A stretch of 32,032 nt of DNA from Novosphingobium sp. Chol11. GTDB lineage: Bacteria > Pseudomonadota > Alphaproteobacteria > Sphingomonadales > Sphingomonadaceae. Shown piece after piece: positions 1-26,151 of the stretch (the first letter of the stretch is position 1; each line of letters starts with the position of its first letter). The notes below the pieces were generated by a model. It did no database searches, had not been told where the DNA came from, and saw only the letters and a list, made by a program, of their open reading frames with translations. The translations under genes and the position numbers were made by a program. Location of the stretch: NCBI GenBank assembly GCA_945906005.1, contig CAMDQY010000004.1:1-32032 (forward strand), in the 5' to 3' direction.

Positions 1-471
1 GAGCGCGCGGCGTCGGTCGCCCGCATCGGGCCAGCGCGCTCGCAGCGCCTCGCGCGCAGCGAACAACGCCGTCGCCAGACGCCCCAGCCCTTGCGGCAGC
101 AGCGCCTCAAGCCGCAGTCGCAGCGCCTTGGCAAGGCCCGCCGAAGCCCCGCCCGTCCCAACCGCGACCAGCACTGGAGAGCGATCGAGCACCGATGGGA
201 CGACAAAATCGCAAAGCTCGGGCTGGTCGGTCACGTTGACCAGCAGACCGGCGCAGCGCAGACGAATGGCGTCGCCCGCGGCGGCATCGGGGTTGTCATG
301 CGCGACAAAGGCCAGCCGCGCGCCCTGATCGATCCCTTGCTGAATGTCATCGACGATCATGCCGCCCGCGCGTTCGACCAGTCGCCGTTTCGCCTCGGCC
401 GCCTCGCCGCTACCCAGCACCACCACCGGTTGCCCGGAAATGCGATGGAACAGGGGCAGCGTCTCGATCAC
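1..471 (-). CDS. Siroheme synthase N-terminal domain-type protein (precorrin-2 dehydrogenase / sirohydrochlorin ferrochelatase), GTG start, 3' end beyond window
   Basis: My own reverse-strand translation (absent from ORF track because it runs off the edge): (M)IETLPLFHRISGQPVVVLGSGEAAEAKRRLVERAGG...LLVNVTDQPELCDFVVPSVLDRSPVLVAVGTGGASAGLAKALRLRLE; matches CysG-N/Met8 pattern. Starts 7 nt after the lysA stop. Confidence 0.85.
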   Translation of the reverse strand, partial: MIETLPLFHRISGQPVVVLGSGEAAEAKRRLVERAGGMIVDDIQQGIDQGARLAFVAHDNPDAAAGDAIRLRCAGLLVNVTDQPELCDFVVPSVLDRSPVLVAVGTGGASAGLAKALRLRLEALLPQGLGRLATALFAAREALRARWPDAGDRRRAL

Positions 472-477
472 CGCGCG

Positions 478-1737
478 CTAGTCCAGCCAGTCCGGCACGG
501 TCTCGGCGGCAAGAATCGTGGCAGGCTCGATCCGGTTCGCGACGATCGCCCAGCGCGTTCCGTCGACCATTACTTCGGGCACCAACGGGCGGCTGTTGTA
601 GGTGTTGGCCATGGTCGCGCCGTAAGCCCCGGCGGTGCGGAACACCGCAAGATCGCCCGCCGCGACCGCATCGATATCGCGGCCCATGGCGAACGTGTCG
701 GAACTTTCGCAGATCGGGCCGGCAATGTTGGCGGTCATGCGGTCGCCGCTTGGTTCGACCGCAGCGAAATCGTGCCAGGCATCGTACATCGCGGGACGCG
801 CCAGATCGTTCATCGCCGCATCGACGATCACGAAGGGAGAGGAAGCGCCCGGCTTCACCCGGATCACCCGGGTCAGCAGCACGCCGGTGTTGCCCGCGAT
901 CACCCGTCCCGGCTCGAACATGATCGTCGCGTCCCAATCGCGGGTTACGTCGGCAACCATTGCGCCATAGGCGGCTGGATCGGGCAGCACTTCACCGGCG
1001 CGATAGGGCACGCCAAGGCCGCCGCCGAGATCCATGTGCGTGACGGTAAATCCTTGTCCCCGCAAATCCCGCATCAAGCCGCCCATTTTGACAAAGGCCT
1101 GCCGCGAAGGTTCGAGATCGGTAATCTGGCTGCCGATGTGAACCGCCAGCCCGCGCATTTCGAGGTTTTCCAGGCTGCTCAGCCGTGCATAGATTCCCGC
1201 CGCCCTGTCATAAGCGACGCCGAATTTGTTCTCGGCCTTGCCGGTTGAAATCTTGGCATGGGTGCCCGCATCGACATCGGGATTGACCCGCAGCGTGCAT
1301 ACCGCGCGCTTGCCCTTGACGGCAGCGATCGCGGCAAGTTCGACGCCCTCTTCCTCGCTCTCGAGGTTGAACTGGCCCAGACCCGCTTCGAGCGCGCGGG
1401 CCATTTCGGCGGCATCCTTGCCGACCCCAGAAAACACGACATCGGCTGGCGGCATCCCCGCCGCCAGCGCGCGTTCCAGCTCGCCTCCCGAAACGATGTC
1501 GGCGCCGTATCCCTCCGCCGCCAGCACCTTGAGAACGGCAAGGTTGGGATTGGCCTTCATAGCATAGGCTAGGTGGACCTTGGGCAGCACGGACAGCGCC
1601 TCGCGGAACACCTGGGCATGGCGTTCGAGCGTGGCGCGCGAATAGACATAGACCGGCGTGCCTACCGCTTCGGCAATTGCCGAAAGCGGCACCTGCTCGG
1701 CATGAAGCACGCCGTTCTGATACGAAAAATGGTCCAT
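478..1737 (-). CDS. lysA: Diaminopimelate decarboxylase
   Basis: MDHFSYQNGVLHAEQVPLSAIAEAVGTPVYVYSRATLERH...AYAMKANPNLAVLKVLAAEGYGADIVSGGEL...DLGGGLGVPYR...FEPGRVIAGNTGVLLT...GPICESSDTFAMGRD. Start is internal to the tracked 493-aa ORF. Confidence 0.95.
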   Translation of the reverse strand: MDHFSYQNGVLHAEQVPLSAIAEAVGTPVYVYSRATLERHAQVFREALSVLPKVHLAYAMKANPNLAVLKVLAAEGYGADIVSGGELERALAAGMPPADVVFSGVGKDAAEMARALEAGLGQFNLESEEEGVELAAIAAVKGKRAVCTLRVNPDVDAGTHAKISTGKAENKFGVAYDRAAGIYARLSSLENLEMRGLAVHIGSQITDLEPSRQAFVKMGGLMRDLRGQGFTVTHMDLGGGLGVPYRAGEVLPDPAAYGAMVADVTRDWDATIMFEPGRVIAGNTGVLLTRVIRVKPGASSPFVIVDAAMNDLARPAMYDAWHDFAAVEPSGDRMTANIAGPICESSDTFAMGRDIDAVAAGDLAVFRTAGAYGATMANTYNSRPLVPEVMVDGTRWAIVANRIEPATILAAETVPDWLD

Positions 1738-1738
1738 C

Positions 1739-1984
1739 TTATTCCTTGGGCGGCAGATCGAACGCGTCGTTGGCCCGCTCTTCGGAGCGGCGGCGTAACT
1801 CGACACTGCGTTCGGGCACGGCCTGCGGCGGTGCCACAAGCAGGGCATCTCCCTCGAGCGGCTCCTCGCGGCCATAGGGCGCGACCGGCAGGTTCTGGCC
1901 CTGCTTGGGTTCGAGCGCGGCCCGGTTGCCGCAAGCCGAAAGCGCCGCGTAGATGCCAAGCAGGAGGATTGCGGGTCGGATCAT
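1739..1984 (-). CDS. Small lipoprotein, LptM-like
   Basis: 81 aa [33 protein letters not shown]...; signal peptide with lipobox LSAC followed by G, position between argH and lysA. Confidence 0.65.
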
Positions 1985-3360
1985 ACTGGGTCCATCCCGA
2001 GTGCCTTCCGAGCGTCTGCCACGCGCGCGCGAACTTGATTGGGCGCGGTGCCGCCGTGGCTTGAGCGTGCAGCGACCGATGCCTCCACCGAAAGCGCGGA
2101 AAAGACTCGCTCGTCGATCCGCGCATCGATGGCCTTGAGCTCATCGAGTGGCAGCAGATCGAGCGCGATTCCGCGCGCCTCAGCCAGCTTTACCGCAGTG
2201 CCGGTGATGTGATGCGCCTCGCGGAACGGTATGTCAGCCTCGCGCACCAGCCAGTCGGCCAGATCGGTCGCGGTAGCATAGCCAAGCTCGGCCGCCTGCC
2301 GCATCCGCTCGGTCCGGAACGTGGCTTCCGCAACCATCCCGGTCATCGCCGCGATCGAGAGCGCGAGCAGCGATGCGGCCTCGAACACCGGCGGCTTGTC
2401 GTCCTGCATGTCCTTGGAATAGGCGAGCGGCAGGCCTTTCATCGTCACCATCAGCGACACCAGACAGCCAGTGATCCGCCCCGAATGGCCGCGCACCAGC
2501 TCGGCAGCGTCTGGGTTTTTCTTTTGCGGCATGATCGAGCTGCCGGTCGAGAGACCATCGGGGAGCGTGATCCAGCCGAAAGGCTGGCTCGCCCACAGTA
2601 CGAATTCCTCGGCCAGCCGCGAGAGATGCAGCACGCACTGCGCCGCCGCCGAGAGATAATCGAGCGCGAAATCGCGGTCAGAAACACCGTCGAGGCTGTT
2701 ATCGGTGGGCGCATCGAAGCCGAGCGCCGAGGCAGTCATTTCCCGGTCGATGGCAAAGCCCGTGCCTGCGAGCGCTGCCGATCCGAGCGGGCACCTGTTC
2801 AGCCGCACTCGCGCATCAGCGAGCCGCGAGCGGTCGCGAGCCGCCATCTCGTAATAGGCCATCAGGTGATGGCCCAGCGTTACCGGCTGCGCGGTCTGCA
2901 AATGGGTAAAGCCCGGCATGATCGACGCGGCGTGCTCGCCAGCGCGGATAACAAGCGCCTTTTGCAGCGCTTCGAGCCCGGCGTCGGCCTGATCGATGGC
3001 GTCGCGCACCCACAGTTTGAAATCAGTCGCCACCTGATCGTTGCGACTGCGCGCAGTGTGCAACCGCCCTGCAACCGGTCCGATCAGTTCGGCAAGCCGG
3101 CTTTCGGTGGTCATGTGAATGTCTTCGAGCGCCCAGTCCTCGGGAACGCCATTGGCTTCGAATTCGGCGGCCACCTTGTCCAACCCGGAGAGGATCGCCT
3201 TGGCATCTTCGCCCGAAACGATACTCTGCGCGCCGAGCATCGTAACATGCGCCTTGCTCGCGGCGATGTCCTGACGCCACAATGCCTTGTCGAACGGGAT
3301 CGAGGCATTTATCTCGCGCATGATCGCAGACGGTCCGCCATCGAACCGCCCGCCCCACAT
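1981..3360 (-). CDS. argH: Argininosuccinate lyase
   Basis: [32 protein letters not shown]...[20 protein letters not shown]...[19 protein letters not shown]; start MWGGRF is internal to the tracked 561-aa ORF. Stop overlaps the lipoprotein start (ATGA). Confidence 0.95.
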
Positions 3361-3379
3361 CGAGTTGGAGCCTGCACTC

Positions 3380-3958
3380 TTGGTTTGGTCGCCGTCGTTC
3401 AAATCGCTTATCCTGGCCTGCGCGCTGTTAGCAGGCGGCTGCGATAGGCAAAGCGGCGCGCCTTCGCAACCGGAGGCTGAGGCTGGTGCCAGGGTACCCG
3501 CCAGCAAGCTCGATCGCAGCCATGCCGGAAAATCCTTGCCAGATGTGACTGTACGCGATCCCGATGAAGAAGAATTGGCGCTCGACAGCCTTAAGGGCCA
3601 GCCGGTGCTGATCAACCTATGGGCGACGTGGTGCGCACCATGTGTGAAGGAATTGCCGACCCTCAATGCTATTGCAAACCGCGCCGATGTCGGAGTTCAG
3701 GTGGTCACGGTATCGCAGGACATGGGCGATGCCACGGCTGTGCAGCAATTCCTCGACCGGCGCGGCCTCGCCCAGCTTCCCGCGTGGATCGACGCCGAGG
3801 GCACGCTGCCCACGCATTATGGTGCCCAGGCCTTGCCAATGTCGGTCCTCTACGATGCCTCGGGCCGCGAAGTGTGGCGCTATATTGGCGACCGTGACTG
3901 GGCCGACGAGGAAAGCCTCAAGCTACTCGGCGAAGCTCCGGTCGTGCCGCAAAGCTGA
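3380..3958 (+). CDS. TlpA/ResA-like thiol-disulfide oxidoreductase, probably secreted or lipid-anchored (start uncertain: TTG 3365 or 3380)
   Basis: N-terminal hydrophobic segment [16 protein letters not shown]; thioredoxin-fold motif [19 protein letters not shown]; tracked ORF 3287..3958. Confidence 0.8.
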
Positions 3959-4704
3959 TGGCACCTCCGGTGCTGGAACTCTACGTGTGCATGACGCCCA
4001 ACACGCTGAAGGCGATGTTCATGCTGGGCGAGCTCGATCTGCCGTTCGAGGTGAAGCATGTGCGCGTCTATCGCGGCGAGCAATTTGCCGAAGGATTCGA
4101 CAGGCTTCATCCCTATCGCAAGCTGCCCGTGCTGGTCGATGCGCAGGGGCCGGAAGGCGCGCCGTTCACGGTGTTCGAATCGGGTGCGATCCTTGTCTAC
4201 CTCGCCGAGAAATACGGGAAGCTACTCGGCAAAGGTGCCGCGGAGCGCAGCACAGTGATGCAATGGCTGATGCTGCAGATGAGCAGCGTCGGGCCATCGT
4301 TTGGCAACGCCTCGCACTTCACCGCGGCAAGCGGTCAGTCTGAAACCTATTCGCGCAGGCGCTTCGTCACGCAGGCCGCCCGGCTTTGCGCGCTCTACGA
4401 CGAACGACTCAGCGCGGAACGCTACCTTGCGGGCGATGCCTTCTCGATTGCCGATGTTGCGACGTTCCCGTGGCTGTGGCGGCATCCGGGCATGGTCCGC
4501 ATCGACACGAGCCGGTTTGACGGGCTCAACCGCTGGCTGCGCGAGGTGGAGCAACGCCCCGGCCTTACCCGAGCGCAGGCGCGCTACAAGACGCTGGTGG
4601 AGGCTGACCGCGCGGACCTGACAGCGATCGATCCCGACCTGATGGACCGGATCATGGGCCGTGGCAGATGGTGGCTTGCCGACGAGTCAGGGGGAGGCCA
4701 GTGA
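3958..4704 (+). CDS. Glutathione S-transferase family protein
   Basis: LELYVCMTPNTLKAMFMLGELDLPFEVKHV...GFDRLHPYRKLPVLVD...VFESGAILVYLAEKYGKLL...AGDAFSIADVATFPWL. Confidence 0.88.
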   Translation: MAPPVLELYVCMTPNTLKAMFMLGELDLPFEVKHVRVYRGEQFAEGFDRLHPYRKLPVLVDAQGPEGAPFTVFESGAILVYLAEKYGKLLGKGAAERSTVMQWLMLQMSSVGPSFGNASHFTAASGQSETYSRRRFVTQAARLCALYDERLSAERYLAGDAFSIADVATFPWLWRHPGMVRIDTSRFDGLNRWLREVEQRPGLTRAQARYKTLVEADRADLTAIDPDLMDRIMGRGRWWLADESGGGQ

Positions 4705-5597
4705 CAGACCTCATCTGCAGCTACTACACGCTGGCCGGCGTCTCCCCCGCTGCCGGAGGATACAGCCCGCGTCCCTTTGCCGAGCGCGTCGAAGCCTGCG
4801 CCCGCGCCGGCTACAAGGGCATCGGCCTGCATGTGCGCGACTATCGCGCCCTGCGCGATAAGGGGCACAGCGACGCCCAGCTGCGTGACATGCTCGAAGC
4901 CAACGGCATGGTGAATGTCGAGGTGGAGTTCCTGCTCAACTGGTTCGCCGACGGCGCGGCGGGTGAGCAGTCGCGCCGTGACGAGGATACGCTTTACCAC
5001 ATGGCGAATACCTTCGGGGCGCGGGTAATGTTCCTTGGCGGCGACATGGCCGAAGGCAACGAGATGCCGTTCGAGGACCTGACCCGGCGGTTTTCTGCAG
5101 TTGCCGAACGCGCCGCGAGCGCCGGGGTACGGCTTGGGGTCGAACCTTGCGCCTGGACCAATGTGGGCGATCTCGACGACGCGCTGCGGCTGGTGCGCGA
5201 TTGCGGGGCAAGCAATGCCGGGCTGTTCCTCGATGTCTGGCACCTTTCGCGCCGAGGCCTCGATTACGAACGCCTGCGCAGCCTCGATCCGGGACTTATC
5301 TTTGGCGTGCAACTCGATGACGTAGCGCCTGTGGTGCAGGGAACGCTGGCCGAGGATTGCCTTAACAATCGGCTGCTGCCGGGACAAGGCGTCGCCGATA
5401 CGGCCCGCTTCGTCCAGACGTTGCTCGAAATCGGCGTCACCTGTCCGTTCAGCGTCGAGATCATCTCCGATGCACAGCGCGCCCTGCCTGTGGCCGAGGG
5501 CGCCAGCGTGAGTTTCGACACCGCGAGCGCAGTGGTCGATGAGGCAGCGGGCAAGGCTGAGTATCGGGATGGGAATGCGAGGACTGGTGGGCGGTAA
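4701..5597 (+). CDS. Xylose-isomerase-like TIM-barrel protein (sugar phosphate isomerase/epimerase family), GTG start
   Basis: (M)TDLICSYYTLAGVSP...ACARAGYKGIGLHVRDY...VRLGVEPCAWTNVGDLDDALRLV...NAGLFLDVWHLSRRG...GVQLDDVAP...FSVEIISD; GTGA overlap with the GST stop. Confidence 0.8.
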   Translation: MTDLICSYYTLAGVSPAAGGYSPRPFAERVEACARAGYKGIGLHVRDYRALRDKGHSDAQLRDMLEANGMVNVEVEFLLNWFADGAAGEQSRRDEDTLYHMANTFGARVMFLGGDMAEGNEMPFEDLTRRFSAVAERAASAGVRLGVEPCAWTNVGDLDDALRLVRDCGASNAGLFLDVWHLSRRGLDYERLRSLDPGLIFGVQLDDVAPVVQGTLAEDCLNNRLLPGQGVADTARFVQTLLEIGVTCPFSVEIISDAQRALPVAEGASVSFDTASAVVDEAAGKAEYRDGNARTGGR

Positions 5598-5934
5598 CGG
5601 GCTCACAATGGTGAACAAAAACCACAGATTTTAGCCTCCGCGCGAGATCGTTTGCGGTCCCGGCCGGAATGATGCCGAGCGGAAGTCCGCTTTCCATCAC
5701 TGCCGGGGCGGCAGATGAGATCGATCCATCCCCGCCGCAAACAACTATCACATCAGAGGAACCCTGAAGCCGCGTGATGTCCCTGGCGATTTCGGGAAGG
5801 TTCTCGAAAGGCTCGACGCTGACAGCGAAACCTCCGGCTTCCAAACGCTCGCGCACCGGCTCGAGAGCGCTACCGCCCTGCCGCGCCTTCGCGTTGTGGA
5901 GGAGCAGGACGCGCTTGCTGTGTTGCGAGGGCAT
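5461..5934 (-). pseudogene. Truncated diacylglycerol kinase catalytic-domain (DagK/LCB5) gene; recognisable part about 5635..5934
   Basis: MPSQHSKRVLLLHNAKARQGGSALEPVRERLEAGGFAVSVEPFENLPEIARDITRLQGSSDVIVVCGGDGSISSAAPAVMESGLPLGIIPAGTANDLARRL, then unrelated residues antisense to the TIM-barrel gene. Confidence 0.75.
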
Positions 5935-5951
5935 CAGACAAGTCGATCGGG

Positions 5952-6593
5952 TTGAATAGCTGGCATAGGACGACCGCGTTGATGCTCGATGTGTTCGAAT
6001 TCCGCGCGCGTGAGGGTGATGACGGATATCGGATCGAGGGCATGATGTGGACCGGCGGCGACATCGACCGTGCGGTCATCGCCCTCGATGCCGAAGGCGC
6101 GTTTGGCGAAGCGGCGGAAAGCATCAAGATCGACGGCTACTGGAGCCATGCAATCAACCCGTGGTTCAACCTGCAGCTTGGAGCGCGTCATGACCTGCGC
6201 CCCGATCCCGAACGCACCTACGCGCTGGTCGGCCTTCAGGGTGTGCTGCCCTACTGGATTGAGGGCGAAGGCCAGCTTTTCGTTTCAAACAAAGGCGATG
6301 TGCATTTGTCCGCCACGGCCTCGCACGACCTACGCGTGACGCAGCGGTTAGTCGTGGAGCCGAAAGTCGAACTCGACGTGGCCTTGCAGGACGTGCCCGA
6401 GCTTGGCATTGGCGCGGGCTTCGACAAGGTCAAACTGTCGGCCCGCGCGCGATATGCATTGGCCCGGAACTTCGCGCCTTACATCGGAATTTCATGGGAA
6501 CGAAAGCTGGGCGGCAGCGCCGATTTCGCCCGGCTTGCGGGTGAGAAATCGTCGGTCGTCTCATTGCTTGTCGGCTTGCGCGCGTGGTTCTGA
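5952..6593 (+). pseudogene. copB: 5'-truncated copper resistance outer membrane protein B (CopB) remnant
   Basis: LMLDVFEFRAREGDDGYRIEGMMWTGGDIDRAVI...SHAINPWFNLQLGARHDLRPDPERTYALVGLQGVLPYWIEGEGQLFVSNKGD...RLVVEPKVELDVALQDVPELGIGAGFDKVKLSARARYALARNFAPYIGISWERKLGG...GLRAWF; no signal peptide or Met/His-rich N-terminus. Confidence 0.8.
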
Positions 6594-6594
6594 A

Positions 6595-6657
6595 ATGTCG
6601 AAGTTCTGGTTTTCGACCCTTGCCGTCCTTTTACTGACCTGTGGCGAAGCGCAGGCG
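6595..6657 (+). pseudogene. Signal-peptide-encoding 5' end of a secreted protein gene, cut at the IS junction
   Basis: MSKFWFSTLAVLLLTCGEAQA directly after copB stop; sequence from about 6658 on is IS3 orfB on the other strand. Confidence 0.6.
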
Positions 6658-7165
6658 GTGGGACTGCTCGACGATCCTGATGATCTCGAGCTTCTCGGAT
6701 CCAGGATACCTCATTCTTGGTCGCCCCCATCCGCGATCATGCTTTTTTAAGCAGGCGGTTCTCGAGGGTCAGGTCGGCAACGCACTCCTTCAGGGCGCTG
6801 GCCTCGCGGCGCAGATCCCTCACTTCGTCGGTCGTGGCTGCGCGGGCGGTATCCCCCGCCAAACGGCGCTTACCGGCTTCCATGAACTCCTTCGACCAGG
6901 TGTAATACAGGCTCTGGGCGATGCCTTCCTTGCGGCACAGCTCGGCAATGCTGTCCTCGCCGCGCAGGCCATCGAGCACGATCCGGATCCTGTCTTCCGC
7001 CGAGAAGTGCCGCCGGGTCGCCCGGCGAATGTCCTTCACCGCAGCTTCCGCAGGGCGCTTGGCTGGCGATTTTGATTTGGAGACTCTTTCAGGTAGCTTT
7101 GATGACGGTTTGGTGGCGTGAGGCCGCCTGAGAAAGTTGGGTCGGCCGAACAGGTTTGTCATGCG
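6658..7165 (-). mobile_element. IS3-family element remnant: complete orfA plus first ~19 codons of orfB; right boundary undefined
   Basis: orfA (6737..7162) and, on the minus strand from 6714, MRYPGSEKLEIIRIVEQSH, the recognisable IS3-type OrfB N-terminus, then a foreign sequence and TAA at 6631. Confidence 0.8.
6737..7162 (-). CDS. IS3-family transposase OrfA (helix-turn-helix)
   Basis: MTNLFGRPNFLRRPHATKP...RRATRRHFSAEDRIRIVLDGLRGEDSIAELCRKEGIAQSLYYTWSKEFMEAGKRRLAGDTARAATTDEVRDLRREASALKECVADLTLENRLLKKA. Confidence 0.9.
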   Translation of the reverse strand: MTNLFGRPNFLRRPHATKPSSKLPERVSKSKSPAKRPAEAAVKDIRRATRRHFSAEDRIRIVLDGLRGEDSIAELCRKEGIAQSLYYTWSKEFMEAGKRRLAGDTARAATTDEVRDLRREASALKECVADLTLENRLLKKA

Positions 7166-7254
7166 TCAATCATCGGATAATTCACAGGAAATAACAACAT
7201 CTTATGAAATAATCGGACGGCTGGCTGGCGACGTCGGAATATTGCACAGCGACC

Positions 7255-7353
7255 CGTCACACGGCCGACAATGGCCATATCTGCTTCGAACGCGGAACCA
7301 CGCAGCTGAGCGGCAAGGCCGAGCGCTCTCACCGCCCTGACCTGCAGCAATAC
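7255..7353 (+). pseudogene. Fragment of a DDE (IS481/integrase-core type) transposase
   Basis: + strand translation RHTADNGHICFERGTTQLSGKAERSHRPDLQQY resembles the TDNGHEF...SPQLNGKVERSHRSDQQEF segment of such transposases, with the middle shortened. Confidence 0.5.
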
Positions 7354-7417
7354 TTGCCAGCCTCTATCCCGAAAGGACTAAGAGCACTTACTCGCAGTGC
7401 CCTTCGATCCCGATCGA

Positions 7418-10400
7418 TCAGAACTCGAAACGAACGCCGACTTTGATTTGGTAGAGCGACTGGCGCGCTTGGTTCTGATTGACCACGTCTGGCTTCGAGA
7501 AGCTCGAATAGCGGGACTGCGCGCAGGTCTGAGTCGGCGCCGTATTGACCACGCCCGTGCCCGGCGTGGTCGCCGTCGGGGTCGCGACCGTCAGGCACTG
7601 CACGTTTACGACAGGCGCAAAATAGGCGAAGTTGACCTGGCGCTGCACGCCCCAGTCACTGTTGAGCATGTTGAGGAAGTTTTCGATGTCGGCAAACACG
7701 CTGATCCGGCTCGTGCCGACAAAGGTCGGGATTTCCTGTTCGAGATGCAGGTCAACCTTCCACACGCTCGGCGATGTGCCAAGATTCTTGGGCGCGATCG
7801 AACCGCGATGACCGTCAAGCTTCGATCCGCTGATGAATGCATCGAGCGCATCGCGGGTTGCCACCGAGTCATAGCTAACTTTCGCATCGTCGATGTCGCT
7901 CGGCACATAGAGCAGATAGCGCGTGTTCGAACCGTTGGTGCCGAATACAGGAGATCGCACGGAACTGGTCGAGCCCGCATCACGCATGGTATAGCTGTAG
8001 GGGCGGCCCGTGCGCCACTCGCCAAAGACCGAGAAGCGGGTCTTGTAGTCACCGAAGAAGGCGTGGTCGTAGTCGATATTGAACTTGGCCGAGTTCCTGA
8101 CCTCGTAGATCGAGCGACCATAGGCCGCAAGGTTCGGATCGGCCATGGCGGCATTGCCATAGAGCGAACCGGGCGTGGCTGAGGTGATCGGGTTCACGTC
8201 CTTGATATTCTGGTAAGTGTAACTCGCACCCAGCCCGAGGCCGAAATCGAACCGCTTGTCGAACCGCGCGACAGCGAAAATCGAGCGGCCCTTACTGGTG
8301 CTATTCAACACCAGGTCCTGGTTCACCTGATTGGTGTCGCCGGCAAGGATGCCTTGCGTGGTGCGGGCATAGCGCGGGCGGCCGTCGGGCAGCGTGCCGA
8401 TCACCACCGATCGGGTATCGATGTAGGTGTTGGCCGCTTCGGTCCAGCCGTAAAGCACGTCCGCGCCCACAAGCCAGCCGTCGCCAAGTTCATAGCTGGC
8501 CGACAGGGTCGCGCGCCACAGCGCCGGCAGATCGTAGCCGGGCGCGATCGCTGCGACCGGCGCGGCCGTTAAGGAAGCAGTGTTGGTGGTGAGGAACGTG
8601 TTCACCCCGGGTGCAAAGGTTGTCCCGTTGATCGCGGTCAGCGCGGCATTGCAGAACGCTGCATCGCCGCTGTTGCACCCAGTGGCATTGCGAACGATAT
8701 TGACCGAATTGGTGAGCTGTCCGGTGTTCGAAAATGAGTTCGCCAGGAACACGTCGGGAGCGCCGCCAGCGAATTTTCCGACGCCGCCGCGAATGATCAG
8801 GCGATCGGTGGCATCCCATTCGAAGCCGACACGCGGCTGGAACGTGCCCTTGCCATTGAACGTGTAATTGTTGGGGAAGCCCGCGCGCGCGAGGAAGTTC
8901 AGATTGGCAGGAACCTTCGAATTGCTGCCTTGTAGGTCATAGCGCGCACCGATGCTGACCAGCAGCGTATCGTTGACCTGCCAGTCGTCCTGCAAGCCGA
9001 AGTTATACTGCTGGGTGGTGAAACGAGCGGCGGCGTCGTTGGCATCGAGGCTCGGCACGGCCTGCTGAAACTGCACGCTGCTGGCCACGCCGGCCTGAAA
9101 ATCAGCGATCGAATCGAAGTATACGTCGCCGATAGCGCGCTGCAGGAACAGGTTGAAGACCTTGGTCCTGCCGAAGCCGATCAGGCCCTTGAAACTGTGG
9201 TTGCCAGCTTCAAGCCGAGGCGTCAGCTCGATATTGAGGTTGGTGTTGTTCATCTCATTGGCCTGGCGGCTGATGTCCGGGCCTAAGAACAGGCGGGGGT
9301 TGGAGGTGGTTGTATTGCCGCAACTCGTGAAGCTGTTTCCGCCCGTGCCGTCGGTGATCGAGACTGGATCGGTGCAGACGCCGAACTGCATGAAATCGCC
9401 GCCGAATGAGTTCTGGCCGCGGTTGTAGTCACGATAGGAAACCCGCAGATCGGTCGAGAACGTATCCGACCAGTCGGAAAACCATTGAAGCGTGCCGGTG
9501 TTGACTTCTTCGGTCAGTTCGTAACCGTTCGATTTCAACCCATAGGTCGGTCCGGTCAGCGAGGTGTTGTTGCCCTGCGAGAACTGGTTGGAGCCGACAT
9601 TGCGAATGTAGGTCAGCGAGATGCGGTTGTTGTCACCGAGGTTGGCGTCGAGCTTGGCGGTAATTTTCTCGTCGGCTTCCTGCGTGCCGTTAAACACGCC
9701 GAGCGCGTCATAACCGTATTTGGACTGCGCGATCGCCCCGATCTGATCGACGAGCGCGGTGGTGACGCGCGGGACCGGGGTGGCGAACCCCGCATCCGAC
9801 GGACCTTCATCAATCGGCTTGCCTTCCTTGGTGCGCTGGTAGGCAACCGCGAAGAACAACTTGTCCTCGATAATCGGGCCGGACAGGAACGCGCCATAGG
9901 TCTTGGCGTCGAAGTCGAGACGCACTGGGTTGCCGCGGATCTTGTCGCCGGTCAGCTTGTCGTCGGTGTAGGTGTAGAAAGCCGATCCGGTGAAATCGTT
10001 GCCGCCCGAGCGCAGCACGACATCGACCGCGCCGCCCTGGAAATCGCCCTCGGAAATGTCGAAGGGCGCGACCTTGACCGAAAGCTGCTCGATCGCATCA
10101 TAGGGCACCGGACCGCGATTGGTCGGCAGGCCGCCGTTGTTGAGACCGAAATCGTCCGAAAACTGGATGCCATCGACTGAGAAACGGTTGAGCCGACCGT
10201 TGTTGCCGGCGATCTCGATCGTGCGGCTGTTCGATGCGTCCATTCTCACGAATGGATCGCGGCGGGCGGCATCGCGGATGTCTCCGGCCACAGAAGCCAC
10301 GCCTTCCAGCGTGGTCCTGTTCAGCACCGTGATTGGCCCTTGCGATGTAATGCGCGCGCCGCTCAGCCCCTCGGCGGTAACGATGATTTCGTCTGTCGGT

Positions 10401-10738
10401 TCGAGCACGACCGGCAGGCGGAACGGCTGGCCCGCCTGGAGGAAAACATCGGTGACCTTTGCATCCGCCAAGCCCGGTGCCGAAACCGTCACCGTGAATG
10501 GCCCGCCGATACGCAGGTTGCCTGCATTGAAAGCACCGTCGCTGCCTGAGGTGGTGGTCGAGCGCGTGCCCGAAGGTTCGTGGAGGATCGTCACGCTCGC
10601 ACCGGCAACCGCGTTTCCGCCCGAATCGACCGTCCCGCGAATCGAGGAGGAAACTTCTTGCGCCGAAACCGGTGTCACGAACGGCGCAGTGAACCCAATC
10701 GAAGCCACGCCTGCGGCTAGCAAATACTTCAGATGCAT
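7418..10738 (-). CDS. TonB-dependent receptor with N-terminal carboxypeptidase-regulatory-like domain (Oar-like)
   Basis: Start MHLKYLLAAGVASIGFTAPFVTPVSAQ (signal peptide) internal to the tracked ORF; EVSSSIRGTVDSGGNAVAGASVTILHEPSGTRSTTTSGSDGAFN; plug-like RFSVDGIQFSDDFGLNNGG...GGAVDVVLRSGGNDFTGSAFYTY; C-terminal ...YQIKVGVRFEF. Confidence 0.92.
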   Translation of the reverse strand: MHLKYLLAAGVASIGFTAPFVTPVSAQEVSSSIRGTVDSGGNAVAGASVTILHEPSGTRSTTTSGSDGAFNAGNLRIGGPFTVTVSAPGLADAKVTDVFLQAGQPFRLPVVLEPTDEIIVTAEGLSGARITSQGPITVLNRTTLEGVASVAGDIRDAARRDPFVRMDASNSRTIEIAGNNGRLNRFSVDGIQFSDDFGLNNGGLPTNRGPVPYDAIEQLSVKVAPFDISEGDFQGGAVDVVLRSGGNDFTGSAFYTYTDDKLTGDKIRGNPVRLDFDAKTYGAFLSGPIIEDKLFFAVAYQRTKEGKPIDEGPSDAGFATPVPRVTTALVDQIGAIAQSKYGYDALGVFNGTQEADEKITAKLDANLGDNNRISLTYIRNVGSNQFSQGNNTSLTGPTYGLKSNGYELTEEVNTGTLQWFSDWSDTFSTDLRVSYRDYNRGQNSFGGDFMQFGVCTDPVSITDGTGGNSFTSCGNTTTSNPRLFLGPDISRQANEMNNTNLNIELTPRLEAGNHSFKGLIGFGRTKVFNLFLQRAIGDVYFDSIADFQAGVASSVQFQQAVPSLDANDAAARFTTQQYNFGLQDDWQVNDTLLVSIGARYDLQGSNSKVPANLNFLARAGFPNNYTFNGKGTFQPRVGFEWDATDRLIIRGGVGKFAGGAPDVFLANSFSNTGQLTNSVNIVRNATGCNSGDAAFCNAALTAINGTTFAPGVNTFLTTNTASLTAAPVAAIAPGYDLPALWRATLSASYELGDGWLVGADVLYGWTEAANTYIDTRSVVIGTLPDGRPRYARTTQGILAGDTNQVNQDLVLNSTSKGRSIFAVARFDKRFDFGLGLGASYTYQNIKDVNPITSATPGSLYGNAAMADPNLAAYGRSIYEVRNSAKFNIDYDHAFFGDYKTRFSVFGEWRTGRPYSYTMRDAGSTSSVRSPVFGTNGSNTRYLLYVPSDIDDAKVSYDSVATRDALDAFISGSKLDGHRGSIAPKNLGTSPSVWKVDLHLEQEIPTFVGTSRISVFADIENFLNMLNSDWGVQRQVNFAYFAPVVNVQCLTVATPTATTPGTGVVNTAPTQTCAQSRYSSFSKPDVVNQNQARQSLYQIKVGVRFEF

Positions 10739-11010
10739 GCTTTTTCCCCTGTAGCCGAGCAAGGCGGATGCGATCATTCGCCGGAATTTCTGAAACTCTA
10801 AAAAACACCTGTATATGACAATTTGCAGACACTCGCCAAAACAGTGGATTCTGGTTCGGCGAGTATCCCCAGGCAACATGGGCATACAGCCACTGACATG
10901 ATCGGTCAGGATGTCCGCTTCCCACGACAAACCAGTCGTTAGCGGTATTCCACCCTCGCCCCGAAAACTGCCGTATATTCAGCAGTTCGGCTGTGCGTAA
11001 TCTACGCCCC

Positions 11011-11748
11011 CTACCCCCGCCCAAACAATTCCGCGCGATCCGCCAGCGGCCCCGCGCCACTGCTGAAATCCACGTCCGCGCCCGGATTGCGGCGCGCTTC
11101 CTGCGCGCGACCCGGCTGGAACGTGTGGCATGAGCCGATCAAGCCGATGTCGCTACCGATCATCCCGGCGGGCATTTCAATACCGCGCCCGCCCGCAACC
11201 ATGCTGGCCCAGCGCAGCACGCGCGCGGCTTCTTCCTCGCGGGGGTCGAGCGTTGCCAGCCATTCGCCGATGCCGGTCAGCCCTTTGCCCGCAACCGCCT
11301 CGGGCGTGACGAAACGCCCTCCTTGCAGCGTCCATTCGAGCAGTTTCTCGCCGTCGCAATAGAGCCGCGTGACAAGCAGTCCGTCCAATGGATCGCTGGT
11401 GAAAATCTCGTAGGTGATCTGCTCGCTCTCGCCTGCGTGGCCCGCGCAGAACGTCGCGAGATCATAGAGATGCGTGCAGTTGAGCGCCTTCATCCGCTTG
11501 ACCGAAGGATCGTCGAGCCGCTTGCCGGTGAAGGTATCGACCAGCACCGTCCTCGCCCCTTCGCAGGTGGTCCAAGGCCCGCGCTTCATCTCGCTCAAAA
11601 CGCCGGTGATCGTCCCGCCCTCGTGGGCGAGAGTGACCACCATCCGGTGATAGTCGTCCTCGAGCTCGGCGGTCACCATGCCCGGCGCAGGATCGATAAC
11701 GATCCGGCGGCGATAACCGGGCAGCTTTTCGGGATCGGGATAGGTCAT
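11011..11748 (-). CDS. DUF2889 domain-containing protein
   Basis: LPGYRRRIVIDPAPGMVTAELEDDYHRMVVTLAHEGGTITGVLSEMKRGPWTTCEGARTVLVDTFTGKRL...MKALNCTHLYDLATF; 25 nt after the upstream crotonase gene. Confidence 0.75.
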   Translation of the reverse strand: MTYPDPEKLPGYRRRIVIDPAPGMVTAELEDDYHRMVVTLAHEGGTITGVLSEMKRGPWTTCEGARTVLVDTFTGKRLDDPSVKRMKALNCTHLYDLATFCAGHAGESEQITYEIFTSDPLDGLLVTRLYCDGEKLLEWTLQGGRFVTPEAVAGKGLTGIGEWLATLDPREEEAARVLRWASMVAGGRGIEMPAGMIGSDIGLIGSCHTFQPGRAQEARRNPGADVDFSSGAGPLADRAELFGRG

Positions 11749-11773: not shown

Positions 11774-12685
11774 TCAATCGAAGCCAAGGTCCTTGAATAT
11801 CTTGTTGAGCTTCTTCCACACGGTCTTGTTGTCGCCCGCCTTGTTGCGCTCGTTCAAAAAGTTGAACTCGTCCTCGCGCCAGACGATGTTGGTGAACAGC
11901 GGGTGACCGATCGAGGCGAAGTTCTGGAAGGCGGCGATGCCGAGTCCGTGCAGGTACTGGTGCATCGCCCGCTTGCTGAGCATCAGGCCATCGGTCGACA
12001 GCGCGGCTGTGGCGCGAGCGAAGCGCATCGCCTCGTCGAACAGCTTGTCCGCGGGCACGACCGAATTGGCGATGCCCCACTCCTTCATCTCGGTCGGAGT
12101 GACCGAGCGGCCGGTGAGCTGGATTTCCATGCCGCGATTGAGCCCCATCTTGAGCAGCGCGATCGGCAACTGGCCGTCGAACGCGGCAAAGCCGATCCGC
12201 GACTGGCGGCGGGCAAAGCGCGCATCGTCTGCACAGACCATCATGTCGCAGGCCAGCGCCAGCGAGAAGCCGAGGCCCATGACATTGCCCTGGCAGGCCG
12301 CGATGGTCACCTTGTCGCCCCAGATCATGCCGCGCTGCAGCGTCTCGTAAGTGTGGCGCATGTTGCGCATGCGGACCGACTGCGGCAGACGCGCGCCCTT
12401 CTTGAGGCCGAAACTTTCGATCGGCGTCTTGCGCGTATCCTCGCCCGAGCAGAAATCTGGGCCTTCTGCACGCAGCACGATGACCTTGACCATGTCGTCG
12501 TCCTGGGCGCGCTCAAACTGCTTGTGGAGCAGGTCGTTCATGCCGGGAATGGCGATGGCGTTGCGGCGATTGGCACGGTTGAGCGAGATCAGGCAGATGT
12601 GATCCTCGACAACTTCGTAGGTGACCGAGTTGGACAGATCCTCGTGCGAAAAGCCTTCTCCGACCTTCGGATCGTTCTCGCTCAT
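11774..12685 (-). CDS. Enoyl-CoA hydratase/isomerase (crotonase) family protein, ECH1
   Basis: VEDHICLISLNRANRRNAIAIPGMNDLL...IVLRAEGPDFCSGEDT...TIAACQGNVMGLGFSLALACDMMVCADDARFARRQSRIG. Confidence 0.88.
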   Translation of the reverse strand: MSENDPKVGEGFSHEDLSNSVTYEVVEDHICLISLNRANRRNAIAIPGMNDLLHKQFERAQDDDMVKVIVLRAEGPDFCSGEDTRKTPIESFGLKKGARLPQSVRMRNMRHTYETLQRGMIWGDKVTIAACQGNVMGLGFSLALACDMMVCADDARFARRQSRIGFAAFDGQLPIALLKMGLNRGMEIQLTGRSVTPTEMKEWGIANSVVPADKLFDEAMRFARATAALSTDGLMLSKRAMHQYLHGLGIAAFQNFASIGHPLFTNIVWREDEFNFLNERNKAGDNKTVWKKLNKIFKDLGFD

Positions 12686-12706: not shown

Positions 12707-12719
12707 CAATTGTCTAACC
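12707..12719 (-). promoter_or_regulatory. Copy 1 of GGTTAGACAATTG motif (reads CAATTGTCTAACC on +), 22 nt upstream of ECH1 start
   Basis: Exact 13-nt match shared with 12839, 20418 and 26139. Confidence 0.7.
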
Positions 12720-12798
12720 TTTAAGTATGCCGCTATTCGCGAAGCTGCCAGATTTGTCAAATGTCAATCCGGTGGGCCTCGGACTGTGCCATGCAGAT

Positions 12799-12826
12799 CG
12801 TGGCAATCGCCTTGGCGGTTGCCACG
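12799..12826. repeat. 28-bp imperfect palindrome CGTGGCAATCGCC-TT-GGCGGTTGCCACG
   Basis: 12 of 13 positions pair between arms; lies between motif copies 1 and 2 in a divergent intergenic region. Confidence 0.85.
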
Positions 12827-12838
12827 TCAATATCTAAT

Positions 12839-12851
12839 GGTTAGACAATTG
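12839..12851 (+). promoter_or_regulatory. Copy 2 of GGTTAGACAATTG motif, upstream of AH1; contains dyad TATCTAA-TGG-TTAGACA at 12831..12847
   Basis: Exact 13-nt match; inverted relative to copy 1. Confidence 0.7.
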
Positions 12852-12933
12852 GAGTGTTACCGACCGTGCGCCCGCGATTGACGATTCGCCGGGGCAGGTC
12901 CAGTCTTTGAGCCAAATGTGAAGGAGAGCGATC

Positions 12934-14175
12934 GTGGCCACTCAAGCGACTCTGGAAAAATTCCCCGACCAGGCAGAGGGGGTGCAGATCGATCCGCGCC
13001 TGGGCTATGCCGTGTTCGATGCCGACAACCACTATTACGAGGCGCAGGACGCGCTGACCCGTCACCTTCCTGCCGAATGGAAGCGGCGCGGGCCAAAATG
13101 GATCGAGATGAACGGGCGCAAGCGGCTGATGCTGGGCGACAAGCTTTACGGCTTCATTCCCAACCCGACTTTCGATCCGATCGCCAAGCCCGGCTGCCTG
13201 CATGACTATTTCGCCGCCAAGCTCGACGGAGCCGATCTCAAGACCGCGATGGGCGATCTCGAACCGCTGAGCAACCGCCCCGAATACGGCAACCGCGATG
13301 CGCGCCTGCGGGTAATGGACGATCAGGGCGTCGGTGCGACGTGGCTGTTCCCGACGCTCGCGGTCACGCTCGAAGTGCCGATGCAGCCCGACATCGCCGC
13401 AGTGCTGGCAACGATCCGCGCCTTCAACCGCTGGCTCGAGGAAGACTGGGGTCTTGCCTACCAGAACCGCCTGTTCGGCGTGCCAATGATCTCGCTGTCC
13501 GATCCCGACTGGGCGGTCAAGGAAGTGGAATGGGCGATCAGCCGGGGCGCCAAGGTGATCTCGATGCGCAACGGCCCGGTCTATACCGCCACCGGCACGA
13601 CCTCGCCTGGCGCACCCGAATACGATCCGTTCTGGGCGCGCTGCCAGGAAGCCAACCTGGTCGTCGCGCCGCACGCGGGCAACGACGGATATGAATTCCT
13701 CGGCAACATGTGGGAACCGGGCGGTTACGGCGCATTCAGCGTATCGCCGCTGCACAAGGTCGTGACCTCGCAGCGCGCGGTTCCCGATTTCTTCGCCGCG
13801 CTGGTCTGCCACAAGGTGTTCGAGCGTTTCCCCCGCCTGCGCGTCGCCTCGGTCGAGAACGGGGCGAGCTGGGTCAAGCCGCTGCTGGTGCGGCTGCTCC
13901 GCGGCCATGCCCAGACCAAGGGCTATTACAAGACCAACCCGGTCGACCAGTTCATGGAGCACATCTGGGTCACCCCGTTCTGGGAGGACAAGATCGAGGA
14001 TCTGGTCCAGTCGATCCCGATCGAGCGCATCATCTTCGGCAGCGACTGGCCGCATACCGAAGGCGTGGTGCGGCCGCTCGATTTCCTCGACAGCCTTGCC
14101 GGCCTCAATGCGGAGGACACACGCAAGGTCATGCGCGACAATGCCGCCGAGCTGACCGCGACCGCCAATCCGTGA
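12934..14175 (+). CDS. Amidohydrolase_2 family (ACMSD-like TIM-barrel) protein, AH1, GTG start
   Basis: YAVFDADNHYYEAQDAL...VMDDQGVGATWLFPT...VVAPHAGNDGY...FPRLRVASVENGASWVKPLLVRL...IIFGSDWPHTEG; AAGGAGAG upstream of GTG. Confidence 0.88.
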   Translation: MATQATLEKFPDQAEGVQIDPRLGYAVFDADNHYYEAQDALTRHLPAEWKRRGPKWIEMNGRKRLMLGDKLYGFIPNPTFDPIAKPGCLHDYFAAKLDGADLKTAMGDLEPLSNRPEYGNRDARLRVMDDQGVGATWLFPTLAVTLEVPMQPDIAAVLATIRAFNRWLEEDWGLAYQNRLFGVPMISLSDPDWAVKEVEWAISRGAKVISMRNGPVYTATGTTSPGAPEYDPFWARCQEANLVVAPHAGNDGYEFLGNMWEPGGYGAFSVSPLHKVVTSQRAVPDFFAALVCHKVFERFPRLRVASVENGASWVKPLLVRLLRGHAQTKGYYKTNPVDQFMEHIWVTPFWEDKIEDLVQSIPIERIIFGSDWPHTEGVVRPLDFLDSLAGLNAEDTRKVMRDNAAELTATANP

Positions 14176-18108: not shown

Positions 18109-19627
18109 AACGGTTGCTGCTCTGCTTGCCGCCAATGCCGCCGCGCGCGGTGAGAGGGATGCTGTCGCCGATCCGCAGGCTCGCATTTCGTGGGCTGAAC
18201 TCGAAAGCAAGAGCGCGGCGCAGGCCGCAAAGCTGGTCGAGGCAGGAGTCAACAAGGGCCATCGGGTCGGTCTGTTGGCCGAAAACAGCGCGGAATGGGT
18301 GGTCTGGGCCTGCGCGGTGATGCGGTTCGGCGCTGTGCTGGTGCCGCTCTCGACGATGCTGCGCATGCCGGAACTCGAAGCCCAACTGCGGATTGCAGGG
18401 GTGCGGCATCTGATTGCGCGACCCGCGATCCGGGACCGCGACATCAAGCGCGAGATGGGAACGCTCGACCGGGCCGCGCTGCCCTCGCTTGGTAATATCT
18501 GGTGGAACGACGTTGCATTGCCACTCCCCTCGCCCGAGGCTGTCGCAGTTGCGAAAGCGCTGACCGAAAAGCTGGTGCCCGCCGATGATCTCGCGGTGAT
18601 TTTCACTTCGGGCAGTAGCGGCGAGCCAAAAGGCGTGATCCACACCCACGGCGGTGCGATCCGCGCCAATACGAGCGGCAACGCGGCTCGCTGCATCACG
18701 GCGGACTCACGCCTCTACCTGCCGATGCCGCTGTTCTGGGCGGGCGGCTTTTGCACCGGCTTGATGTCCTCACTCAACACGGGCTGCACGCTACTTACTG
18801 AGGCGGGGAGCGATGCACGGCAAACGCTCGCCTTTCTTGCGCGCGAAAGGGTGACGCTATTTCGCGGCTGGCCCGATCAGGCAGCGCGGCTCGCCGCACA
18901 CCCCGACTTTGCCAGGACCGACCTCTCCTCGCTCCAGCCCGGCAGCCTCGATGCGATCATGCCCGGCGATCCTCCGCCTGCGGGAGCGCGTGCGCCGGTG
19001 CTCGGCATGACCGAAAGCTTCGGCCCTTATTGCGGCTGGCCGCTCGATGAACTGCTCCCGGAGGGCAAGCGGGGCAGCCTCGGCAAGCCTTTCGCCGGCG
19101 CACAGGTGCGAATTTCCGATCCGGAGAACGGCGCGGTGCTCGGCGCGGACGAAGTGGGCGCGATCCAGATCGGCGACCCTATCGTACTCAAAGGCATTTG
19201 CGGGTGCGAGCGCGAGGACACGTTCACCGCCGATGGCTGGTATGACACCGGCGACATGGGCCGCCTAGATGCAGATGGCTTCCTGTGGTTTGCCGGAAGG
19301 TGCGATGACATGGTCAAGATCGCGGGCGCAACCGCCTATCCGGCGGAAACCGCGGCGGCGCTGGAACGACTACCCGGTGTGGAGCGCGCGGTGGTCTGCG
19401 ACGTTACCTTGGATGGCGAGACCCGGTTCAGTGCGGCGGTGGTGGGCGCGGAGCTATCCGTCGCGGGCCTTGCCTCAGCCGCGCGCGAAGCGCTCAGTGC
19501 GTTCAAGGTGCCGCGGCTGTGGCTTTTGCTCGGCTCGGCGGACGAACTGCCGCGTCTGGTATCGGGCAAGGTCGATGTGGCGAAACTGCGCGAGACGATT
19601 AGCGCAAAGGGTGTTACCGCCCCTTGA
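18098..19627 (+). CDS. AMP-forming acyl-CoA ligase, LIG3 (GTG start)
   Basis: VIFTSGSSGEPKGVIHTHGG; VLGMTESFG; YDTGDMGRLDADGFLWFAGRCDDMVKIAGATAYPAE; LVSGKVDVAKL; 11-nt overlap with LIG2. Confidence 0.92.
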   Translation: MPGETVAALLAANAAARGERDAVADPQARISWAELESKSAAQAAKLVEAGVNKGHRVGLLAENSAEWVVWACAVMRFGAVLVPLSTMLRMPELEAQLRIAGVRHLIARPAIRDRDIKREMGTLDRAALPSLGNIWWNDVALPLPSPEAVAVAKALTEKLVPADDLAVIFTSGSSGEPKGVIHTHGGAIRANTSGNAARCITADSRLYLPMPLFWAGGFCTGLMSSLNTGCTLLTEAGSDARQTLAFLARERVTLFRGWPDQAARLAAHPDFARTDLSSLQPGSLDAIMPGDPPPAGARAPVLGMTESFGPYCGWPLDELLPEGKRGSLGKPFAGAQVRISDPENGAVLGADEVGAIQIGDPIVLKGICGCEREDTFTADGWYDTGDMGRLDADGFLWFAGRCDDMVKIAGATAYPAETAAALERLPGVERAVVCDVTLDGETRFSAAVVGAELSVAGLASAAREALSAFKVPRLWLLLGSADELPRLVSGKVDVAKLRETISAKGVTAP

Positions 19628-20399
19628 ACTGCGGCGCGCGGCGCTCGGCAAATGCGAGCACGCCTTCCTTGAAATCCTCGGTCGTGACGGCGACCTGCTG
19701 GCTCTCCGCCTCGACCTGGAGTGAAGCCTCGAAGCTCGATTCGAGCGCCAAGCGCACCTGCTGCTTGATCAGCGCGAGGGTCTTGGTCGGCATTGCCGCG
19801 AGCTTCACCGCGACTTCGAGCGCGCGGTCCATCAGCTTGTCGTCATCGACGACTTCGGTGACGAGGTTGCAGCGCTCAGCCTTCTCGGCACTCATCTTGT
19901 TGGTGAGCAGCGCCATCTCGAGCGCGCGCACCCGGCCCGCCGCCCGCGCTACCAGCCAGGTTCCGCCGACATCGGGCGTCAGCCCCAGATTGGCGAAAGT
20001 GAACACGAAATTCGCGCTCCTCGCCGCAATGATGATGTCTCCCGCGAGCGCCAGCGAGGCCCCCGCGCCTGCCGCGACGCCGTTGACTGCCGTGACGACC
20101 GGCACCGGCGCATCGGCAAAGGCGCGCGCCAGCGGCTTGTAAAAGGTCTCCATCATGCCGAGCACGTCGGACTTGCCCCCGCCTTCGCCGGCCCCGCCAA
20201 GGTTCGCGCCAGCGCAGAACCCCCGGCCCGCGCCAGTGACCAGCAGGGCGCGCGCGCCAGCCGCGACCTCGCCGTTCATCGCGGCGGCGATCTCCAGCGC
20301 CATGTCGGGGGTGAATGCATTGAGCACCTCAGGCGCGTTGAGCGTCACAATCGAGACCGCGCCCTGACGTTCAACCAATACGTTGCCCGTTTCGCTCAT
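19614..20399 (-). CDS. Enoyl-CoA hydratase/isomerase family protein (PaaG-like), ECH3
   Basis: MSETGNVLVERQGAVSIVTLNAPEVLNAFTPDMALEIAAAM...GRGFCAGANLGG...VNGVAAGAGASLALAGDIIIAARSANFVFTFANLGLTPDVGGTWLVAR; start internal to tracked ORF; 3' end overlaps LIG3 3' end by 14 nt. Confidence 0.9.
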   Translation of the reverse strand: MSETGNVLVERQGAVSIVTLNAPEVLNAFTPDMALEIAAAMNGEVAAGARALLVTGAGRGFCAGANLGGAGEGGGKSDVLGMMETFYKPLARAFADAPVPVVTAVNGVAAGAGASLALAGDIIIAARSANFVFTFANLGLTPDVGGTWLVARAAGRVRALEMALLTNKMSAEKAERCNLVTEVVDDDKLMDRALEVAVKLAAMPTKTLALIKQQVRLALESSFEASLQVEAESQQVAVTTEDFKEGVLAFAERRAPQFKGR

Positions 20400-20417
20400 G
20401 TCCCGCACCCTTCTCGC

Positions 20418-20430
20418 CAATTGTCTAACC
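20418..20430 (-). promoter_or_regulatory. Copy 3 of GGTTAGACAATTG motif, 19 nt upstream of ECH3 start
   Basis: CAATTGTCTAACC on + strand; exact 13-nt match. Confidence 0.7.
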
Positions 20431-20432
20431 AA

Positions 20433-20462
20433 ACAGCACTTGCCGCACCGCGCAAGTGCTGT
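20433..20462. repeat. Perfect 11-bp inverted repeat ACAGCACTTGC-N8-GCAAGTGCTGT
   Basis: Read directly; in the divergent ECH3/SnoaL intergenic region, 3 nt beyond motif copy 3. Confidence 0.88.
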
Positions 20463-20501
20463 CCATAGCGTCAGGAACTGAGACGACAGGGGAGGACAGC
20501 G

Positions 20502-20897
20502 ATGACCGAATTTACTGCAGAGAGCCTGATCGCAGCCGAGCACGCGCGGCGCGCGGCCATCGTCGCGCTCGATCTGGACGCGCTCGAGGCGATGACCGCC
20601 GACTGGTTCCACTATGCCCACATCTCGGGCCTGGTCGAAACGCGCGAGGAATACTTCGCGCGGACCCGCGCCAGTATCGGCTCCCCCTCGCGGATCGTTG
20701 CGACGAGCGCGCACGACATCGCGGTCGAACTGCGCAAGGGCTATGCGCTGATGACCGGCAAGTCGCACCTCGACACCACGGCCTTGAAGTTCGACTCGTT
20801 GTTCCTGTCGGTTTGGGAACCGGACGAAAACGGCTGGATGATCGCGGCCTATGCCTCGACGCCGGTGCACCTTCCCGCGTCGTTCCTCTCGGCCTGA
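20502..20897 (+). CDS. DUF4440/SnoaL-like (NTF2 fold) protein
   Basis: 131 aa MTEFTAESLIAAEHARRAAIVALDLDALEAMTADWFHYAHISGLVETREEYFARTR...; AGGGGAGG upstream of ATG. Confidence 0.75.
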   Translation: MTEFTAESLIAAEHARRAAIVALDLDALEAMTADWFHYAHISGLVETREEYFARTRASIGSPSRIVATSAHDIAVELRKGYALMTGKSHLDTTALKFDSLFLSVWEPDENGWMIAAYASTPVHLPASFLSA

Positions 20898-26138: not shown

Positions 26139-26151
26139 GGTTAGACAATTG
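26139..26151 (+). promoter_or_regulatory. Copy 4 of GGTTAGACAATTG motif, between divergent ACAD and LIG4
   Basis: Exact 13-nt match. Confidence 0.7.

Follow-up and report, generated by a model that had tools for sequence, protein, structure and literature searches.

A palindrome between two putative GntR/FCD operators in the ECH1/AH1 spacer of a Novosphingobium catabolic cluster

Operators of the FadR subfamily follow the consensus TKGT/ACMA, in which GT and AC are typically 3 nt apart; where double sites occur in divergent regions, they are either shared centrally or lie each near its own operon (PMC4494728). In Agrobacterium fabrum, hydroxycinnamate degradation is repressed by Atu1419, a tetrameric GntR protein of the FCD/VanR type, whose tetramer loops two operators that are 190 bp apart in the hydroxycinnamate degradation region (PMC7797058). 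NanR binds GGTATA repeats (PMC8012715).

We compared these systems with a locus in a 32,032-nt stretch of the genome of Novosphingobium sp. Chol11 (the window; the genome is G000 below). Here, a 248-bp spacer separates two divergent genes: ECH1 (11774-12685, minus strand), which belongs to the enoyl-CoA hydratase/isomerase family (PF00378, 1.7e-33), and AH1 (12934-14175, plus strand), an amidohydrolase (Amidohydro_2, PF04909, 2.7e-20). As in the FadR subfamily (PMC4494728), two of the four copies of a short motif (copies 2 and 3) carry TKGT-N3-ACMA with A/T-rich flanks, the divergent spacer has two sites, each near its own gene, and an FCD gene co-occurs with them. On the other hand, the AYAATTG half-site is far more conserved here than the other one, several orthologs have GT-N3-AT, which departs from the GntR consensus, and binding is only predicted. 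With Atu1419 (PMC7797058) the locus shares an FCD GntR regulator, a CoA-linked catabolic region and two operators per intergenic region, one of which overlaps or adjoins promoter elements, at a spacing of 190 bp there and about 132 bp here. Unlike here, the operator of Atu1419 is ATGTATACAT, and the tetramer and the DNA loop were demonstrated there, whereas they are only possible in our case. In NCBIfam and PDB, the sequences closest to the candidate regulator are NanR and PdhR, two GntR/FCD proteins with solved structures. Since its matches fall far short of the NCBIfam cut-offs (87 of 260 bits for NanR), the candidate is not an ortholog.

Motif copies, gene cluster and candidate regulator

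The motif GGTTAGACAATTG occurs exactly at 12707 (minus strand), 12839 (plus), 20418 (minus) and 26139 (plus), and nowhere else in the assembly. Putative operator 1 is this motif at 12707-12719 on the minus strand, where it would cover about +6 to +18 relative to the predicted start of ECH1 transcription; it is conserved in the orthologs. Putative operator 2 (CTAATGGTTAGACAATTG, 12834-12851, plus strand) has an identity of 0.95 in five species. It includes the exact motif at 12839-12851 (plus), inverted relative to operator 1, and, according to a pattern scan, the sequence TGGT-TAG-ACAA (TKGT-N3-ACMA) at 12838-12848; relative to the predicted start of AH1 transcription its centre lies at about -68, and its conserved form in the orthologs is CTAATGGTTAGAYAATTG. 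Copy 3 (20418-20430, minus) precedes an enoyl-CoA hydratase gene (ORF 19614-20870, with the start probably near 20400), and copy 4 (26139-26151, plus) between an acyl-CoA dehydrogenase gene on the minus strand and an AMP-binding CoA ligase gene on the plus strand. GT-N3-AC is present in all four copies; copies 2 and 3, with TGGT-TAG-ACAA, agree with TKGT/ACMA at the 3-nt spacing, and copies 1 and 4 have AGGT/CGGT. The bases of the operator that are invariant beyond the core (ATTG) are no part of the GntR consensus. The idea that every copy of the motif acts as a -10 box was also considered and rejected, as a TTG at a fixed distance is absent at copies 1, 3 and 4.

The exact motif was found in six of 196 genus genomes (G000, G015, G149, G151, G187 and, once, G006), five of which have close AH1 orthologs; a reversed-pattern control gave no match across the same 196 genomes. 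G145 has degenerate copies only. In G000, copies with one or two mismatches are found at C87:6286, C28:1759, C12:6386, C144:4643 and C150:1632 (L013, L012, L011, L026 and L027), and several of these precede an amidohydrolase paralog, or apparent flavin monooxygenase and P450 genes. These dispersed near-copies are a possible regulon of the same regulator. For example, the sequence at C12:6386-6405 (L011), GGTTAGACCATTGTCTAATC, shows the motif in an almost symmetric form with two inverted half-sites.

The rest of the window encodes CoA ligases, more enoyl-CoA hydratases, an alpha/beta hydrolase, a short-chain dehydrogenase, an acyl-CoA dehydrogenase, amidohydrolases and a Rieske oxygenase with a KshA C-terminal domain; going by these predicted functions, the gene set is a CoA-dependent degradation cluster. 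The relatives by AH1 are Novosphingobium or Sphingomonadaceae MAGs, and a literature search found no paper on this catabolic cluster. Downstream of ECH1 there is a conserved gene of 245 aa (11011-11748, minus), 80-82% identical in G015 and G149, without a significant Pfam match (DUF2889 only, sub-threshold at 0.011). From 11011 onward the gene order is largely common to the cluster contigs of G015 and G149, and the genes in 1-10930 of the window have no counterpart on these contigs.

The candidate regulator combines an N-terminal GntR winged-helix domain with a C-terminal FCD domain; in its G149 ortholog, PF00392 scores 63.6 bits (1.3e-17) and PF07729 54.1 bits (2.6e-14), both above the curated cut-offs. 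Among the 196 genus genomes, orthologs with at least 71% identity are present in G000, G015, G145, G149, G151 and G187; the match in G179 has 64%, and all the others have at most 40%. In G015 and G187 the gene is divided between contigs. In G000 it has an intact frame on contig C87, which also carries a one-mismatch copy of the motif. G149 and G151 carry the gene on the cluster contig, and in G015 the cluster contig begins with the end of the gene. In summary, it co-occurs with the motif and the ECH1/AH1 gene pair, and three genomes show it linked to the cluster. We found no motif copy within 3 mismatches in the stretches around the regulator gene, and therefore see no sign of autoregulation in these sequences. 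As alternative regulators, members of the TetR and AraC families were sought on the cluster contigs, and none was found. Judging by the co-occurrence and by the fit to the consensus, the motif is most likely an operator for the GntR/FCD regulator, and we treat the two as a candidate binding pair.

The palindrome and the conservation of the spacer

Bracketed by operators 1 and 2, the spacer contains a near-perfect palindrome, CGTGGCAATCGCC-TT-GGCGGTTGCCACG (12799-12826, assigned to neither strand), with 12 of 13 pairs, a 2-nt centre and one T/G mismatch. A previous sequence-only reading had described these 28 bp in the same terms, had located them in the ECH1/AH1 intergenic region between inverted motif copies and had noted that the lack of a T-tract is unlike an intrinsic terminator. 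The pairing and the coordinates bear this out, and a scan of the element also rejects a terminator: there is no T-run after the stem, and the site lies between divergent gene starts. A REP/BIME-like repetitive palindrome is ruled out, as the element is a single copy in the 2.59-Mb assembly in a search allowing up to 3 mismatches. A sigma-54 promoter within the palindrome was rejected as well, since the GG/GC spacing, checked by eye, does not fit and the stem is unconserved.

How unusual such a palindrome is depends on the background. Dinucleotide shuffles of the 248-bp spacer gave a comparable palindrome in 2 of 1000 cases, and shuffles of the whole window gave at least one in 10 of 20. We also counted palindromes with 13-nt arms, at most one mismatch and a loop of at most 12 in 422 kb of the same genome, that is, in 390 kb of other stretches and the window. 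There were 15 of like quality, about 7 of them in the roughly 52 kb that a crude gene caller left as approximate non-coding DNA, and thus the palindrome is not unusual for this genome. It is notable within its own spacer and ordinary genome-wide.

We aligned the G000 spacer with the orthologous spacers of G015, G151, G149 and G187 (AH1 89-95% identical) and of G145 (81%), six in all. Since unconstrained stretches are only about 35% identical across the species, conservation in the spacer is informative. What the alignment shows as conserved is operators 1 and 2, the -35-like block of each promoter-like element, the -10-like block of ECH1 and a ribosome-binding site. Within the palindrome, the right-arm core GCGGTTG (12815-12821, plus) has an identity of 0.886 in the five close species versus 0.346 for neutral sequence (P = 5e-6 per window, about 3e-4 after window correction). 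Its TTG is kept in all six species, G145 included, and its distance to operator 2 is equal in five of them and one base shorter in G145. The left-arm core CAATCGC (12804-12810, plus) is kept only in G000, G187 and, with one change, G151, and is absent at the aligned position in G015 and G149. The outer stem changes at the neutral rate (identity 0.32 versus 0.35). The palindrome is complete only in this genome among the six spacers.

Counts of paired cells and of covariation in the stem on this alignment were no higher than in shuffles (for covariation, 252 of 500 shuffles were as high), and so the compensatory changes that the sequence-only reading had suggested looking for did not appear. The stem does score better than slid versions of itself, which is expected for a structure drawn from one of the aligned sequences. 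An alternative MAFFT alignment of the short core moves a 7-nt gap in G149; the conclusions are independent of its placement. Because the outer stem is neutral, the left core is kept in three species and covariation is lacking, the palindrome as such is, by this footprint, not the conserved unit, and the conservation of both half-sites that characterises a conserved palindromic operator was not found. The earlier reading had named a lack of conservation in both arms among the things that would count against it; this describes the outer stem, and the left arm outside three species, but not the right core. By AH1 identity G015 comes closest (an AH1 tree is mostly unresolved), and this suggests an old imperfect core of the palindrome that G015 has since lost. 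It is the short box in the right arm that is worth testing.

Predicted promoters and possible roles of the palindrome

A strict scan of the spacer for the sigma-70 consensus found no promoter, and we assigned promoters by conservation together with a loose consensus. The ECH1 promoter-like element (12732-12760, minus strand) reads TTGACA (12755-12760)-N17-AATAGC (12732-12737) and is conserved in six species. The AH1 element (12878-12906, plus strand) reads TTGACG (12878-12883)-N17-CAGTCT (12901-12906), with a conserved -35-like and a weakly conserved -10-like block. If these elements are used, we infer transcription starts near 12725 for ECH1 and near 12913 for AH1. Since the palindrome lies upstream of both predicted starts, it is probably not a 5'UTR hairpin, a role once suggested for it in the AH1 operon. 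That the right-arm box serves as the -35 of a second AH1 promoter, with the -10 under operator 2 (TTGCCA-N17-TAGACA), is only a possibility, with which the nearly constant distance between the right-arm TTG and operator 2 would agree.

We consider it rather probable that the spacer is a divergent promoter region under GntR/FCD control with two operators about 132 bp apart, and that the palindrome is a lineage-specific elaboration round a conserved box and not in itself what functions there. A GntR-family FCD (FadR-subfamily) regulator would bind the two inverted operators and so control ECH1 and AH1 of the CoA-dependent catabolic cluster. Operator 1 would be placed just downstream of the ECH1 promoter, the classical position of a repressor, where the bound protein would block transcription, and operator 2 upstream of the AH1 promoter. 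The right-arm core GCGGTTG would be a conserved box that belongs with operator 2 and may serve as a -35-like element or as a site touched by RNA polymerase or some other protein. The left arm and the outer stem would have been elaborated in this species from a loose, imperfect dyad, by chance or by template switching at an inverted repeat. We draw the promoters, the binding, the repression and the role of the box in this account from the sequence, its conservation pattern and the co-occurrence of motif and regulator. The composite control region proposed earlier is supported in outline, as the orthologs keep the order of two inverted motifs and two promoter-like elements. The roles proposed for the palindrome find no support. 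For a catabolic cluster of the Novosphingobium group that is so far uncharacterised, the account supplies a regulator, an operator and a set of targets that experiments can address. It also illustrates how footprinting tells a striking unconserved palindrome from quieter conserved elements nearby.

The spacing of the operators, start to start, is 133, 133, 133, 132 and 133 bp in five species and 140 bp in G145; it holds while the DNA between them diverges, which, given the few sequences, is suggestive only. It corresponds to about 12.6 helical turns, and the sites are not placed on the same face. By analogy, a GntR/FCD tetramer could loop the two operators and silence both promoters, with the GCGRTTG box serving a second factor or a second AH1 promoter and the palindrome tuning the loop in this genome; we regard this as decidedly improbable.

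The palindrome had also been read as a possible second operator. A narrower version, which we think unlikely, holds that its core is a 20-bp dyad, GCAATCRC-N4-GCGRTTGY, for a second dimeric regulator, perfected here and decayed in some relatives. The dyad is indeed kept in G000, G187 and G151 with an identical 4-nt centre, its right half is conserved in all species, and looser inverted GCAA/TTGC arrangements are visible by eye in G015 and G145. The identity of the left core among the first three is 0.905 versus 0.39 for neutral sequence (P about 0.02 after window correction), but it is not significant after correction across five species, nor for G187 and G151 alone, and the left half is missing at the aligned position in G149 and in G015, the closest genome by AH1 identity. 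There is also no regulon signal: of the genome's two further dyads with one mismatch, one precedes a likely glutamate synthase gene by about 130 nt and the other falls in apparent coding sequence. A regulon-wide dyad was tried with a relaxed pattern (136/170 hits versus 50/50 in the control) and rejected, as the hits that were checked lay mostly in apparent coding sequence and followed no target logic. With the outer stem at the neutral rate, a left arm in three species and no excess of covariation, neither the operator role nor the cruciform that the sequence-only reading had offered finds support. A structural element, be it a DNA cruciform or an RNA hairpin in the AH1 leader, has very little probability in our view, even though the palindrome folds as single-stranded DNA with -12.4 kcal/mol (z = -5.6) and the RNA fold of the 81-nt region has a z of -2.8. 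The covarying or conserved stem expected of a structured RNA is absent, the palindrome lies outside both predicted transcripts, it has no T-tract, and an Rfam search gave no match, on which ground we rejected an RNA family.

More doubtful than a dyad for a second regulator is the idea that quasi-palindrome template switching alone made the arms alike, as a result without selection. The imperfect core common to G187 and G151, with the outer pairs found only in this genome, would fit such an origin, and the process has been described in E. coli (PMC7202029). Point mutation and chance explain a near-perfect palindrome equally well, however, and the mutational account concerns the origin only and is compatible with the divergent promoter region that we favour. 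A second palindrome, with perfect 11-bp arms, is found at 20433-20462, 2 bp from operator copy 3; it is likewise perfect only in this genome, and the orthologs keep pieces of the sequence and not the symmetry. With two palindromes near operators perfected in this genome only, a mutational explanation suggests itself, which is here indistinguishable from chance. We rejected the idea that palindromes generally accompany the motif: they are found near 5 of 16 motif sites (arms of at least 11 bp; two of the sites share the palindrome at 12799-12826), but they are unrelated, variously placed and unconserved between orthologs. At 40-64 nt downstream of operator copy 4, unrelated palindromes are present in G015 (L087, about 1540-1561) and G149 (L078, about 1545-1564), which differ in sequence and have a roughly equal position.
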